From Nitrospirales bacterium (GTDB taxonomy: Bacteria > Nitrospirota > Nitrospiria > Nitrospirales > UBA8639): DNA of 61,307 nt. Made by a program: the position numbers and the translations under genes. The stretch is taken from contig JAJEJG010000016.1 in the NCBI GenBank assembly GCA_022828225.1, forward strand, positions 1 through 61,307, written 5' to 3'. Under the pieces are notes generated by a model that worked only from the letters and a program-made list of their open reading frames with translations, ran no database searches and was not told where the DNA came from. This document shows positions 28,679-48,329 of the stretch, piece after piece; the first letter of the stretch is position 1, and each line of letters opens with the position of its first letter.

Positions 28679-28720
28679 CTCTACCCCACCTGACCTCCCC
28701 TTACAAAGGGGAGGGAAAAG
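28679..28720 (+). repeat. REP-like palindrome CCTCCCC-TTACAAA-GGGGAGG, copy 1
   Basis: CTCTACCCCACCTGACC followed by a 7-bp stem around TTACAAA. Related copies lie at 42642 and, inverted, at 42747. It is located just after secG, so it may also act as a transcript end. Confidence 0.65.
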
Positions 28721-42163: not shown

Positions 42164-42712
42164 ATGAACGCTTCCTCACGACCCCGCAAGAAACCCGGAC
42201 GGCCGCGTCTCTCCGCCGAAGCCGTCTTGCAGGCCACGCATTTCTCCCTGACCGGCAACGCCCTTTCGCTAACCCTGCCCCTTCCCCCCAGCATCAACCG
42301 GCAATATGCCACGGTCAACGGCCGCCGCGTGTTGTCGGCAACGGGACGTCGCTACAAGGTCACGGTTGGCCAATTGCTCATGACGGCCCCCTCTTCATCC
42401 GAATGGACCGCTTTTTTGCAGAAGGCCCAGGAACATTTCCTGACACTGACCATTCACTTTTACTTTCCGACACTGTTAAGACGGGATATCGACGGTGGGC
42501 TGAAAATCGCTCAGGACGCGCTCTGTGAAGCCATGAGCCTTAATGACAATCGGATCATGGAAATCCACCTGTATAAAGCCCTGGATCGCGACAAGCCGCG
42601 ACTCGAATGCACGCTGGCCCTGGCGAGTCCCTTGAGCAAGTCCTCTACCCCACCTAACCTCCCCTTACAAAGGGGAGGAACCAGAGGGCGATCCCGGAGC
42701 AGCCGGCGTTAA
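42164..42712 (+). CDS. RusA-family Holliday-junction resolvase-like protein
   Basis: 182 residues. The RusA pattern is present: LPLPPSINRQY near residue 45, RRDIDGGLKIAQDALCEAM (catalytic acidic cluster) and NDNRIMEI. RusA enzymes cut four-way junctions and are often phage-derived. The basic N-terminus (RPRKKPGRPRLS) resembles an AT-hook. The last ~22 residues (STPPNLPLQRGG and on) are encoded by a REP-like palindrome, so the gene appears to have been extended into a repeat. The start at 42164 follows a poor ribosome-binding site. Confidence 0.7.
   Translation: MNASSRPRKKPGRPRLSAEAVLQATHFSLTGNALSLTLPLPPSINRQYATVNGRRVLSATGRRYKVTVGQLLMTAPSSSEWTAFLQKAQEHFLTLTIHFYFPTLLRRDIDGGLKIAQDALCEAMSLNDNRIMEIHLYKALDRDKPRLECTLALASPLSKSSTPPNLPLQRGGTRGRSRSSRR
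42642..42680 (+). repeat. REP-like palindrome, copy 2 (inside RusA-like 3' end)
   Basis: CCTCTACCCCACCTAACC followed by CTCCCC-TTACAAA-GGGGAG. It encodes the C-terminal residues of the RusA-like protein. It is in inverted orientation to copy 3, 67 bp away. Confidence 0.7.
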
Positions 42713-42746: not shown

Positions 42747-42788
42747 CTTTTCCCCTCCTTTGTAAGGAGGGGCTAGGGGAGGTAGAGG
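42747..42788 (-). repeat. REP-like palindrome, copy 3 (inverted)
   Basis: CCCCTCC-TTTGTAA-GGAGGGG then CTAGGGGAGGTAGAGG, the reverse complement of the repeat at 42642. Together they can form a large cruciform between the RusA-like and HEAT-repeat genes. The rest of 42713-42890 is pyrimidine-rich with no gene seen. Confidence 0.7.
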
Positions 42789-44020: not shown

Positions 44021-44533
44021 CTATGCCGCCACCCGCCATTGATTTTTGATGAGTTGAAAGGTGGGCTTTCTCTTCCCCTTGGGCTGTTTCGCCATCATGA
44101 GTCGCTTCGCAAAGTCGAGCAGGGCTTCCTTGTCAAGCTCGCCTGCATTTGCTTCTCGAATGAGCACACGCGCTAAGGTATCGCCGGTTTCACCAAGATT
44201 TTTATATTTCCCATTTTCGAACCGTGAGAGATGGGCGGGGTTAATCCGCAAAAGTGCCGCTAATTCTTGCGCCTGGAATCCGGCATGCTTGCGGAGATAG
44301 CGCAATTCTTGACCAGTTAAAAGCCCTGGTTTGCGCAACAAGTTCCCGGCAATGACATCCATCAAAAGCCCAAGCTTGGGAATCTCCACGTCATATTCAC
44401 GGCAAGACGCACAATGATGTAACGTGACACCGGCTAGATAGATATTGCTCAACCCACTTTCCACGAAACGATAAGGCTTCTCAATCGTTGTGCGTTCCGA
44501 CAGCAAGGCGCCTCCGCATTTTGGACATTTCAT
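44021..44533 (-). CDS. MqsA-like antitoxin: zinc finger plus XRE helix-turn-helix
   Basis: 170 residues. The N-terminal YgiT-type zinc finger (CPKC at 3-6 and CASC at about 41-44) is followed by an XRE helix-turn-helix (about 72-125: LTGQELRYLRKHAGFQAQELAALLRINPAHLSRFENG) and a basic tail. This is the architecture of MqsA, which neutralises its toxin with the zinc domain and represses the operon with the HTH. AGGAGG lies five bases before the ATG. It follows the DUF4258 gene by 12 bp, toxin first as in mqsRA. Confidence 0.85.
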   Translation of the reverse strand: MKCPKCGGALLSERTTIEKPYRFVESGLSNIYLAGVTLHHCASCREYDVEIPKLGLLMDVIAGNLLRKPGLLTGQELRYLRKHAGFQAQELAALLRINPAHLSRFENGKYKNLGETGDTLARVLIREANAGELDKEALLDFAKRLMMAKQPKGKRKPTFQLIKNQWRVAA

Positions 44534-44545
44534 GAGATCCTCCTT

Positions 44546-44836
44546 TCACCCAATGACCGTAACGATGATGAGTGCGTCTTCGATTTCAACCACACAGGAC
44601 CCTTGTTTGTTATTCAGGGTGTGCCCCTCGATTTTATAACGCCAAGTCCCCTCTGGCATGGAACGATCAACTAACCGGCCATACCATAAAATATTTTTCA
44701 TATCTTGGACTGTGATGTTCCGTTCAGCCATACGTTTGCGAGCATGTTGCCGAATGATGACGGCGTTGTTATTCCAGCGTTCCTTGAGCACCGCCTTAAG
44801 TCGTCGTTCTCCTAATGGCTTAGCATGATAACTCAT
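44546..44836 (-). CDS. DUF4258 protein, probable toxin of a TA pair
   Basis: 96 residues. The DUF4258 pattern is clear: QHARKRMAERNITVQDMKNILWYG, then WRYKIEGHTLNN and VVEIEDALIIVTVIG, a small RelE/MqsR-like fold predicted to be an RNase toxin. It is paired with the MqsA-like antitoxin downstream. The start is uncertain: ATG at 44836 is only about four bases after the predicted transcription start, so the mRNA would be almost leaderless. A TTG at 44875 lies upstream of the predicted -10 element and is unlikely. Confidence 0.75.
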   Translation of the reverse strand: MSYHAKPLGERRLKAVLKERWNNNAVIIRQHARKRMAERNITVQDMKNILWYGRLVDRSMPEGTWRYKIEGHTLNNKQGSCVVEIEDALIIVTVIG

Positions 44837-44846
44837 CAAGTTTAGA

Positions 44847-44875
44847 ATTATAGAAAAATCTTGATAATTTATCAA
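44847..44875 (-). promoter_or_regulatory. Promoter of the DUF4258/MqsA-like pair with overlapping palindrome
   Basis: On the minus strand TTGATA (44875-44870), 17 bp, TATAAT (44852-44847). The perfect palindrome TTGATAA-A-TTATCAA (44861-44875) covers the -35 box, a natural operator position for the antitoxin (inference). Confidence 0.75.
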
Positions 44876-44892
44876 ATAACATCTACTCCTCT

Positions 44893-44921
44893 TTGATTGT
44901 ATAAGTATTTACTTATATAAT
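44893..44921 (+). promoter_or_regulatory. Promoter of the XRE-SPARTA operon with operator-like palindrome
   Basis: TTGATT (44893-44898), 17 bp, TATAAT (44916-44921). The 18-bp inverted repeat TATAAGTA-TT-TACTTATA (44900-44917) fills the spacer and runs into the -10 box. A protein bound here would block RNA polymerase. The likely binder is the XRE protein encoded just downstream (inference). Confidence 0.78.
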
Positions 44922-44966
44922 TGCAAAAGGCTATGAAGCACAAAGAACGGAAGCCTGTTATTTGTC

Positions 44967-45296
44967 ATGAAAAAGAACCCCCACATCGAGTTTGAAGACA
45001 GCTCGGGGAACGTCTTTGCCGATCTGGGTCTGGACCATCACGAAGAGCTACTCACCCGAGCCCAGCTTAGGCATTCGGTGAGAATGATCCTTGAAAAACG
45101 GAATCTGAAACAAAGGGAAATCGGAAAACTGCTGGGAATCAAGCAGCCTGAAGTGTCCAACCTGATGAATGGACGCTACACGCTCTTTTCCCAGGAACGG
45201 TTGTTTGGCTTTCTCAATAAGTTGGACCGCAAAGTCACGGTGAAAGTCACTCCCCGCCGCAACGGAGAAAAACCGCAAGAGGTCGTCTTTGCCTAA
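44967..45296 (+). CDS. XRE-family helix-turn-helix regulator heading the SPARTA operon
   Basis: 109 residues of the HTH_37/HigA-like type. The DNA-binding motif is LKQREIGKLLGIKQPEVSNLMNGRY (about residues 47-71), followed by LFSQERLFGFLNKLDRKVTVKV, typical of antitoxins encoded with RelE/HigB toxins. No such toxin is beside it. Its last codons overlap the TTG start of the TIR-APAZ gene by 8 bp, so the two are translationally coupled. It most likely represses its own promoter and the SPARTA genes, or is a captured antitoxin remnant. Confidence 0.85.
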   Translation: MKKNPHIEFEDSSGNVFADLGLDHHEELLTRAQLRHSVRMILEKRNLKQREIGKLLGIKQPEVSNLMNGRYTLFSQERLFGFLNKLDRKVTVKVTPRRNGEKPQEVVFA

Positions 45297-46794
45297 AACA
45301 TGTCTGCCAATTGATAAAGAAAAAGAGGATACTTGCCATGTACCAGCACCTGCCCAGCGGCAGGCCTTATTCATCAGTCACGCAAATCCTGAAGATAATG
45401 AATTTACGATTTGGCTAGGATCCCATCTCAGTGGAGCAGGCTATGAAGTATGGGCTGATGTCTTAAGGGTTCGCGGGGGTGAAGACTGGGCAAGAAAACT
45501 GGAGCAGGCACTTCGTGAACGAGCTTGTAAGGTTTTGTTGGTCGGAACACCATCGGGGGTCGAGAAACAGGGAGTTCGAAATGAAATTCAAATCGCTTCC
45601 GAAGTAGCCCAAAGAATCGACGACAAAGAGTTCATCATCCCTCTTCGACTACAGCATTATGACTCGCCTTTCCAAATTGCGCAGGCACACTATATCGATT
45701 TTCTGAATGGATGGGGCCAGGGTCTTGCCGACTTGCTAGAGACCTTAGAGGGCTATGAACTGCCCCGCCTACAATCATTTCATGCCGAAAGCATTGAAAA
45801 TTGGCGGGCTGCCCAGTTGGTTAAAACTCACGTAGTCCAACCGAAACCCGAGAAACTGGTTTCTAACTGGCTTCGGATTATTGAGTGGCCAAATTCCATA
45901 AAATATTTTGAGTTTAGAGTTGGAATTTCGGAGGAACGAGTCAAGGCGATAGTGCATAGTTGTAAGTGGCCAGTCTACCCTATTGCTCGTGGATTTTGGA
46001 CATGCGCAGAGAAAAATGATTTCCATACGGACCAGGGTGAATCTTTTCCGATTCTACTTCAGAGGGAATTAGATTTTTCGCACTTTCTCGAGACAGGAAG
46101 ACGTGCTTGCTCAGTTAATCTCCAGGAAGCTAGAAACATCGTTAGTCATCTAACAAGGTGCGCTTTAGAGAACAAATTTCGCGATTGTAATTTATCTTCC
46201 TATGATTACGCCAATGGGATCCTAGGATGGTGGGTCCAATCAAAGTTAATCCCGGGCGATAAAATAAGCTTCAAATGGAAAGAACGGACATCTGGAAGGA
46301 GGCAGTTAGTTGGAGAAACGACTTCTGGACAAACAAGAATTAAATGGCATTTTGGAATATCCGGCAAACCCTGGATGTCACCCGAACCTCATATTCGAAT
46401 TCTGCCACGCATTCTTTTCACAGAAGATGGCTTTCATGCTATCGAAGATGCCAAACGCATGCATCGTTTGCGACGATCTGTACCCAAATCATGGAGAAAT
46501 GAACGTTGGAGAGACATGCTGCTTGCGTTTTTATTCTGGCTTTCGAATGGAGAAGACCATGTTTCCCTCAAAGCAGGATCATCTTCGGGAATAAAGATCG
46601 AAGTACCCCCTATCACGATGATTTCCCCGGTCTCGGTCAGTCATGACAAAAGCGAAGAGCCAGAAGAGATTGAGGTTGATGATCCTGTCTTTGAAGGAAA
46701 CTTTGACGAGTTTATCGAAGAAGATTATGAAGAGGACAACGAATCTCAACCTGACGAAGAAAAACCATCTATACAAAGGCAAAAGGAAGATTAA
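45289..46794 (+). CDS. TIR-APAZ effector of a SPARTA-type short Argonaute system
   Basis: 501 residues. The N-terminal TIR domain (about 25-160; ALFISHANPEDNEF, GYEVWADV, GVEKQGVRNEIQIA) has a candidate NADase glutamate at E99. The remainder fits an APAZ domain that docks on short Argonaute. The C-terminal ~55 residues are strongly acidic. In known SPARTA systems guide-directed sensing of invader DNA activates the TIR domain to deplete NAD+ and kill or arrest the cell. TTG at 45289 is chosen, with AGAGG six bases upstream; an ATG at 45338 is out of frame. The pAgo gene begins five bases after the stop. Confidence 0.88.
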   Translation: MPKTCLPIDKEKEDTCHVPAPAQRQALFISHANPEDNEFTIWLGSHLSGAGYEVWADVLRVRGGEDWARKLEQALRERACKVLLVGTPSGVEKQGVRNEIQIASEVAQRIDDKEFIIPLRLQHYDSPFQIAQAHYIDFLNGWGQGLADLLETLEGYELPRLQSFHAESIENWRAAQLVKTHVVQPKPEKLVSNWLRIIEWPNSIKYFEFRVGISEERVKAIVHSCKWPVYPIARGFWTCAEKNDFHTDQGESFPILLQRELDFSHFLETGRRACSVNLQEARNIVSHLTRCALENKFRDCNLSSYDYANGILGWWVQSKLIPGDKISFKWKERTSGRRQLVGETTSGQTRIKWHFGISGKPWMSPEPHIRILPRILFTEDGFHAIEDAKRMHRLRRSVPKSWRNERWRDMLLAFLFWLSNGEDHVSLKAGSSSGIKIEVPPITMISPVSVSHDKSEEPEEIEVDDPVFEGNFDEFIEEDYEEDNESQPDEEKPSIQRQKED

Positions 46795-46799
46795 ACATC

Positions 46800-48329
46800 G
46801 TGGAATTGGATTTTGTTGAAGAGCCCAAACTGGAATTTGCATTTGAGCAAAACGAAGAATATCCCCGTGACGGGCTTTTTCTTTTTGGCCCCATAAAAGA
46901 TGAGGCAGCACCAGAAACCCTACGGTATGGGGTCATTGGAACATCCGATGGGATTAAACGCTTTAAGCGGTGGGCTCAAACAATTGGAGGTTATATCAAA
47001 CGATTCGAACCTCGTTTAAACCCAGAAGCCCAACACCATACTTCGTTTCCAGGATTTGAGAGCGTGTTTCGGTCCAAATGTCCCACAGAACCCTTGGCCA
47101 CGATAAAAGTTTCCGAAACGGAGTTGAAGAAAGCCCTTGGAATAGAAAATCGTTTTGAGGCTATCAAAAGTGCTGTTGACCTATACGTTGATCCTCTTAT
47201 TGATTTTTCAAAGAGGGAAGAAGCAGAACCTGACTTTTGGTTTGTGGTGATTCCCGAGTTTGTGTATCTACTTGGCAGACCGACATCCAAAGTCCCCAGA
47301 AATGAAAGAACGCCAGGCAAAGTCACCATATCACGAGCCAGAGCTCGACATATAAAAACGGCACCCACCTTATTTGGATATGAGGAAGAAGAAGCTGAAG
47401 TTTATAGATACTCAAAGCATTTCCGCAGGCAACTTAAAGCAAGACTGCTTAAAGATAAAATTGTGACGCAGATTGTCCGGGAAACAACATTGACTCCTGA
47501 TGATTTCAAAACAAGTTTTGGAAGTCTTATTCGTAAGGTAGAAGACCCGGCCACAATTGCATGGAAACTTTGTACAACAGCTTATTATAAGGCAGGGGGC
47601 AAACCCTGGAGACTGTCTGGAGTACGACCGGGTGTGTGTTATGTGGGATTAGTCTATAAACAGACTGATCCCGATTCAGATGACCCCAATGCCTGCTGTG
47701 CCGCGCAGATGTTTCTATCCTCTGGCGATGGCCTCGTATTCAGAGGAGCCGCCGGTCCTTGGTATACCCCATCAAACAAAGAATATCACCTAGAAAAGAA
47801 ACCCGCCGCAGAACTGATGTCATTGGTAGTATCGGAATATAAGAGACTGCATGATAACCAAGACCCGTCCGAGCTTTTTATTCATGGCCGCACGAAATTC
47901 GACGACCAAGAGTGGGAGGGGTTTCAGTCCGCTGTACCATCTTCAACAAATTTGGTTGGTGTTCAAATTCGGGATGCCAAATCAGAACTAAAGCTTTTCA
48001 GCCCAAGGAAATACCCGGTCATAAGAGGAACTACACTAAAATTATCAGAACGGACCGCATATTTATGGACAAGTGGCTATATACCCAGATTAAACACCTA
48101 CCTAGGTCCTGAAACACCAAATCCTATTTTCGTTCATGTCCAAAAAGGGGATTGTCCCATGGATATGGTCTTAGCGGATGTAATGCGCCTGACTAAACTT
48201 AATTACAATACATGCCTGTTTAATGACCGGCTTCCCGTAACCATCAAATTCGCCAATGCCGTGGGAGAAGTCCTTATATCTGCCCCCCAGACTGAGGAGC
48301 CGAAGCTTCCTTTTAAATTTTACATTTAG
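46800..48329 (+). CDS. short prokaryotic Argonaute (MID-PIWI), catalytically inactive
   Basis: 509 residues, MID (about 30-260) and PIWI (about 260-509) domains without PAZ or N domains. The MID 5'-phosphate pocket is marked by YSKHFRRQLKARLLKDKI (about 204-221). PIWI begins at GGKPWRLSGVRPGVCYVGLVY, where the first catalytic Asp is absent, so target cleavage is not expected. Paired with the upstream TIR-APAZ protein it forms the SPARTA heterodimer; short pAgo binds a small guide and recognises complementary DNA. The start is GTG at 46800 with AGGAAG upstream. Composition is clearly AT-richer than the flanks. Confidence 0.88.
   Translation: MELDFVEEPKLEFAFEQNEEYPRDGLFLFGPIKDEAAPETLRYGVIGTSDGIKRFKRWAQTIGGYIKRFEPRLNPEAQHHTSFPGFESVFRSKCPTEPLATIKVSETELKKALGIENRFEAIKSAVDLYVDPLIDFSKREEAEPDFWFVVIPEFVYLLGRPTSKVPRNERTPGKVTISRARARHIKTAPTLFGYEEEEAEVYRYSKHFRRQLKARLLKDKIVTQIVRETTLTPDDFKTSFGSLIRKVEDPATIAWKLCTTAYYKAGGKPWRLSGVRPGVCYVGLVYKQTDPDSDDPNACCAAQMFLSSGDGLVFRGAAGPWYTPSNKEYHLEKKPAAELMSLVVSEYKRLHDNQDPSELFIHGRTKFDDQEWEGFQSAVPSSTNLVGVQIRDAKSELKLFSPRKYPVIRGTTLKLSERTAYLWTSGYIPRLNTYLGPETPNPIFVHVQKGDCPMDMVLADVMRLTKLNYNTCLFNDRLPVTIKFANAVGEVLISAPQTEEPKLPFKFYI

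Follow-up and report, generated by a model that had tools for sequence, protein, structure and literature searches.

The window, by which we mean the whole 61,307-nucleotide stretch of Nitrospirales DNA that was analysed, carries a SPARTA operon in which an old toxin–antitoxin switch has probably been reused to hold a suicidal defence in check. SPARTA kills its host by NAD depletion. Directly ahead of its two genes lies an XRE gene of the HigA antitoxin type, preceded by a promoter that is overlapped by an 18-bp palindrome. On the evidence laid out below it is likely that XRE is a HigA-type autorepressor, that the palindrome is its operator and that, the toxin gene having been deleted, the pair now governs SPARTA at a low, self-limiting level of expression.

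A HigA-type antitoxin ahead of SPARTA

The XRE gene (44967..45296, forward strand) encodes a protein of 109 aa. It matches the HTH_37 profile, which describes HigA-type antitoxins and repressors, with 76 bits against a cut-off of 27 (E 1.5e-21), and its domain matches are to HTH families only. The recognition helix lies around QPEVSNLMNGR, residues 60-70. In 49 genomes of the family and 296 of the phylum the homologs are mostly HigA antitoxins with a HigB-type toxin gene just 5', and those of 57-94% identity sit, in most loci, directly downstream of higB. Three features by which a HigA-type regulator can be recognized are thus found together: the HTH_37 domain, orthologs directly 3' of a HigB-type toxin gene, and a palindromic operator in the protein's own promoter, here predicted from sequence conservation. 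Profile comparison with solved HigA structures gave weak matches (HigA3, E 0.014; HigA2, E 0.016), the structural-genomics entries 2o38 and 2a6c matched well, and a structure predicted from three sequences was of low confidence (pLDDT 64.5). Against orthologs the dN/dS of XRE is about 0.1 (0.08-0.15), which indicates purifying selection, though much of it may date from the time before higB was lost.

The promoter and its palindrome

The promoter consists of a -35 element TTGATT (44893..44898, forward strand) and, 17 bp further on, a -10 element TATAAT (44916..44921, forward strand). The TTG is invariant across ten aligned promoters; the -10 is the full consensus in the window and TATCAT, TAGAAT or similar in relatives. 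For the window a transcription start at about 44928 is predicted. The palindrome, TATAAGTA-TT-TACTTATA, occupies positions 44900..44917 on no particular strand, exactly as the original prediction had it when we re-read the sequence. It was also said to fill the promoter's spacer, which is right as far as its place between the two elements goes, except that its last two bases (44916-44917) are those with which the -10 hexamer begins.

Neither element is striking when taken alone. The promoter matches the consensus at 10/12 positions, and the region holds 6 promoter-like sites where 5.9 are expected, so that this match by itself is not special. A perfect inverted repeat (arms of at least 8, loop of at most 4) turns up in the 132-bp gap in about 3% of first-order shuffles, and by the same measure the whole window has 12 such repeats where 4.6 are expected. 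A palindrome in an AT-rich gap is therefore only mildly improbable, and the single sequence alone would not prove function. These figures are what could be said for a chance, functionless palindrome, a reading to which we give almost no credence and which is ruled out by the conservation described below: the site is kept at one specific position across genera and in a second phylum, and XREs with another recognition helix have another site there.

The genome has the 18-mer a single time, even with up to three mismatches allowed. A search for TTGNNNN followed by the palindrome, with the middle base left free, hit 3 of the 296 phylum genomes, and every hit lies at an XRE/higBA promoter. In IMG/VR, XRE had five relatives, of which three matched only in part, and the palindrome by itself turned up on ten contigs. 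There are two copies of a different sequence, CTCCCCTTACAAAGGGGAG, in the window, and a related inverted repeat lies close by (42659-42677, 28695-28713, 42753-42771); the sequence resembles an intergenic repeat element.

A probable operator inherited from higBA

In the relatives of the window the palindrome fills the equivalent -35/-10 spacer ahead of an intact higB. Nine aligned loci from three genera have a palindrome 83-100% identical to that of the window, while their 40-bp upstream flanks are only 12-35% identical to it. The form TATAAGTATTTACTTATA is found in this spacer in G077 and G298, TATAAGTAATTGCTTATA in G277 and G304a, TATAAGTAATTACTTATA in G204 and G304b, TATTAGTAATTACTTATA in G309 and TATAAGCAAGTACTTATA in G314; the ninth locus, copy b of G227, has TATAAGCATTTACTTATA ahead of an xre that has no higB. 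The most distant case is a plasmid of Stanieria cyanosphaera (Cyanobacteriota), where a palindrome identical at 18/18 positions precedes an internally shortened higB (43 aa). The XRE encoded there is 66% identical to that of the window and has the helix IKQPEVSNLM, and none of 20,000 shuffles yielded the Stanieria 18-mer. At this locus (L216:1326-1815), which combines the palindrome with an in-frame-shortened higB and a HigA-type XRE, the toxin core appears to have been lost independently. Three further relatives on cyanobacterial plasmids (L213, L214 and L215) had no clear palindrome; in the first of these the start of higB appears to be disrupted by a transposase-like gene.

Site and protein also vary together. 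XREs of 74-100% identity (group A) have the helix IKQPEVSNLMNGRYTLF in common, the sole departure being a decaying XRE in G227, and a TATAAGTA site is found wherever their promoter has been retained. XREs of 57-62% identity have IGQAEVSxLMNAR or a helix near it, and in six loci of this kind that position is taken by a TATTACAA-type palindrome. The recognition helices of the two groups differ at residues 59, 61, 65 and 69. Such a pattern would be expected of a protein that reads the palindrome; the sequences show it as a contrast between two clades and not as a series of many independent changes. Taken with the intact higBA loci, the comparison indicates that the palindrome is an inherited higBA operator which did not evolve with SPARTA.

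Deletion of higB and the history of the slot

What is left of the toxin gene can still be read. A 20-codon relic ORF, MKHKERKPVICHEKEPPHRV (44933..44995, forward strand), consists of the first ~11 codons of higB, which align with the higB starts of G298 and G077, followed by out-of-frame XRE sequence. Relative to G298 the window is missing 325 bp, with the junction at about 44964/44965. An intact higB beside higA, as in a complete HigBA module, is thus absent from the window. The scar, CCTGTTATTTG|TCATGAA, is identical in the window and in copy b of G227, which indicates that the deletion is common to both. As the deletion took the 3' end of higB with its AAGGAG-like Shine-Dalgarno sequence, translation of XRE may be weaker than before.

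The slot flanked by the HEAT gene and miaB records the alternatives. Seven members of the genus have none of these modules in it; G077, G277 and G298 have intact higBA with the palindrome; G296 has only a MqsA/DUF4258 pair; the window has MqsA/DUF4258 followed by scar-XRE-SPARTA; and in G227 the island is larger, comprising XRE'-SPARTA as well as MqsA/DUF4258-scar-XRE. In that genome an insert of ~200 bp with inverted-repeat content, which looks MITE-like, separates the DUF4258 promoter of copy b from its XRE promoter (L013:10030-10270). We also considered whether the window XRE arose by simple recombination of the two XRE copies of G227, and saw no clear breakpoint.

This distribution bears on the divergent neighbours as well. 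On the reverse strand lie a MqsA-type antitoxin gene with zinc ribbon and HTH (44021..44533) and a DUF4258 gene (44546..44875, start codon uncertain) that encodes its putative toxin partner. The palindrome is in the intergenic region that this pair shares with xre, and MqsA too has an HTH, so that the palindrome might belong to the divergent module and be bound by MqsA. We regard this as highly improbable, and dropped it on presence and absence across the genus: G077, G277 and G298 have the palindrome with no adjoining MqsA/DUF4258, G296 has MqsA/DUF4258 with no palindrome, and the divergent promoter (TTGATA-17-TATAAT, 44847..44875, reverse strand) carries an inverted repeat of its own, TTGATA-ATT-TATCAA, over its -35. 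G227 has this repeat intact and G296 has kept part of it, which makes it a candidate MqsA operator.

HigA-type genes with no intact higB are also found elsewhere in the family, at L022, L023 and L064 (G177, G123 and G227a), and loss of the toxin with retention of the antitoxin appears from these sequences to be a repeated event. One may ask, then, whether the promoter, operator and XRE of the window are simply left over from a decayed higBA, the orphan antitoxin being kept, if at all, against related HigB toxins (anti-addiction) and any effect on SPARTA being incidental. The recurrence of higB loss with XRE kept (in the window and G227b, which share the scar, and in G227a, G123, G177a and Stanieria) fits this account, as do the orphan XRE of G227b, which drives no SPARTA and whose -10 has decayed to TAGCCT, and the SPARTA systems elsewhere that manage with no XRE of the HTH_37 type. 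We nevertheless consider it unlikely. The palindrome of the window is perfect and its -10 is the consensus, unlike those of G227b, and the overlap of xre with TIR-APAZ, with no further promoter-like site found from the palindrome to TIR-APAZ, means that XRE would control SPARTA even if by accident.

The SPARTA genes and the sister genome

Both effector genes are intact, with TIR-APAZ (45289..46794, forward strand; PADLOC Aga_TIR, E 6e-149) directly 5' of the short pAgo (46800..48329, forward strand; pAgo_I, E 1e-207), as is characteristic of SPARTA. Promoter scoring picked out a single candidate just 5' of xre and the two effector genes, the promoter overlapped by the palindrome, and detected no other between the palindrome and TIR-APAZ. 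TIR-APAZ starts with TTG at 45289 and so shares 8 nt with the end of xre, stop included, and there is no in-frame ATG ahead of the TIR domain. This junction is conserved in G227, which argues for translational coupling of TIR-APAZ to higA, and such coupling is probable.

The same overlap, which joins xre to the effector genes as in many toxin–antitoxin operons, together with XRE's membership of an antitoxin family, could suggest that XRE is also a protein-level antitoxin that binds the complex of TIR-APAZ and pAgo in the way that HigA binds HigB. This seems to us very unlikely: the SPARTA that has been studied is a two-protein system triggered by guide RNA and target DNA (PMC11156904), and most of the SPARTA loci compared have no such gene.

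The combination of palindrome, XRE and SPARTA is found in this single genome. The original prediction proposed to look for conservation of the palindrome across XRE-SPARTA loci, and there it finds no support, because the only other such locus, that of G227, has no palindrome; G227 does have a palindrome with XRE, separately and with no SPARTA. This counts against the HigA-operator reading. The SPARTA-linked XRE' of G227 is 77% identical to XRE; E is replaced by K in its recognition helix, and its dN/dS of 0.26-0.38 looks relaxed. In the pAgo beside it one extra base at a short A/G run shifts the reading frame (L013:7660-7750), which could be decay into a pseudogene or an assembly error.

Discussion

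We propose the following history and mechanism for the HigA-type repressor and its operator. An ordinary higBA promoter would have stood in the slot between the HEAT and miaB genes; 325 bp of higB would then have been deleted in the lineage of the window, with promoter, operator and higA remaining; and SPARTA would have come to adjoin the 3' end of higA, with the start codon of TIR-APAZ inside the higA stop region. From the sequence and by analogy we infer that XRE binds its operator, represses the operon and is coupled to TIR-APAZ, with a consequence for defence. A HigA/XRE dimer would sit on the palindrome, a recognition helix in each TATAAGTA half-site, between the -35 and the -10 and overlapping the latter, where it would exclude RNA polymerase. 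An autorepressing antitoxin that has no toxin would thereby keep the expression of a suicidal NADase defence low and self-limiting, and derepression might follow degradation of the repressor or shut-off of host gene expression.

The closest precedent is HigA2 of Vibrio cholerae, a dimer of which binds a single inverted repeat that begins after the -35 and covers the -10; its recognition helix contacts bases, and it represses (PMC11006873). By this analogy the XRE dimer of the window should exclude polymerase. The idea that a dimer bound here would block polymerase is well supported as an inference, given conservation across genera and in a second phylum, a site that differs with the helix, and an overlap with the polymerase site like that in the HigA2 footprint; what the original prediction did not include is the origin of the site, which belonged to higBA. 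HigA of Pseudomonas aeruginosa likewise binds palindromes in its own promoter (PMC6987408). It needs two cooperating dimers, however, and a single palindrome might therefore not suffice in the window. That XRE switches SPARTA on and off is more than the evidence can carry. The deletion of higB has removed the toxin's input to regulation, and steady negative autoregulation, as of a thermostat, is favoured over a sharp switch.

It is less probable, though far from remote, that the module has become a dedicated immune regulator, with SPARTA in the toxin's place under the HigA autorepressor, the operator inherited, translational coupling gained, and SPARTA regulated like the toxin of such a module and set free when infection deprives the cell of the labile antitoxin. 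The complete arrangement may have been selected for SPARTA control specifically.

The locus shares with HigBA autoregulation (PMC11006873, PMC6987408) an HTH antitoxin and an inverted-repeat operator in its own promoter. It differs in that the toxin gene is deleted, the effector of the operon is now SPARTA, and the half-site is the TATAAGTA of this particular HTH_37 subfamily. As in other SPARTA systems (PMC11156904, PMC10474274), both effector genes are intact and adjacent in a single operon, whereas the HigA-type gene in front, overlapping the TIR-APAZ start, is found only in the window and G227. The regulators CapW/BrxR (WYL), CapH+CapP and CapK+CapS (PMC9122601, PMC13373217) are also DNA-binding repressors encoded first in a defence operon and expected to limit a suicidal effector. 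XRE, in contrast, is derived from an antitoxin and has neither a sensor domain nor an adjoining peptidase or kinase, its neighbours being the DUF4258, MqsA-type and SPARTA genes.

HTH_3-type (PF01381) and other HTH genes have been reported to adjoin pAgos, including in 13% of short-pAgo operons without APAZ-SIR2; the available part of that account gives no operator, origin or history of toxin loss (PMC6299218). XRE is not a general component of SPARTA, as no clear HTH_37 gene was found near the other SPARTA loci examined; a marginal match at L141 (E 0.034) is to an HTH_3 protein. That protein, of the Cro/CI type, is encoded before SPARTA (L141:3267-3593), with a similar one at L142 (Bacteroidota: Euzebyella, Maribacter). 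WYL-domain regulators lie directly 5' of TIR-APAZ at L098, L104, L113 and L116, with similar sequence at L100, and one scanned locus has an IclR gene in the upstream slot. The WYL-SPARTA loci, from Burkholderiales and related genomes, resemble the CapW/BrxR arrangement. The WYL, HTH_3 and IclR genes of the sampled loci suggest that regulators have been recruited ahead of SPARTA repeatedly and independently, and their variety is consistent with the HTH genes described in pAgo operons (PMC6299218).

The transcriptional control of SPARTA has been little studied, and our searches of an open-access library brought up no description of a SPARTA repressor. The locus described here offers a concrete, testable operator-repressor pair for SPARTA, and it shows a possible route to defence regulators, in which an antitoxin and its operator are captured and the toxin is lost.
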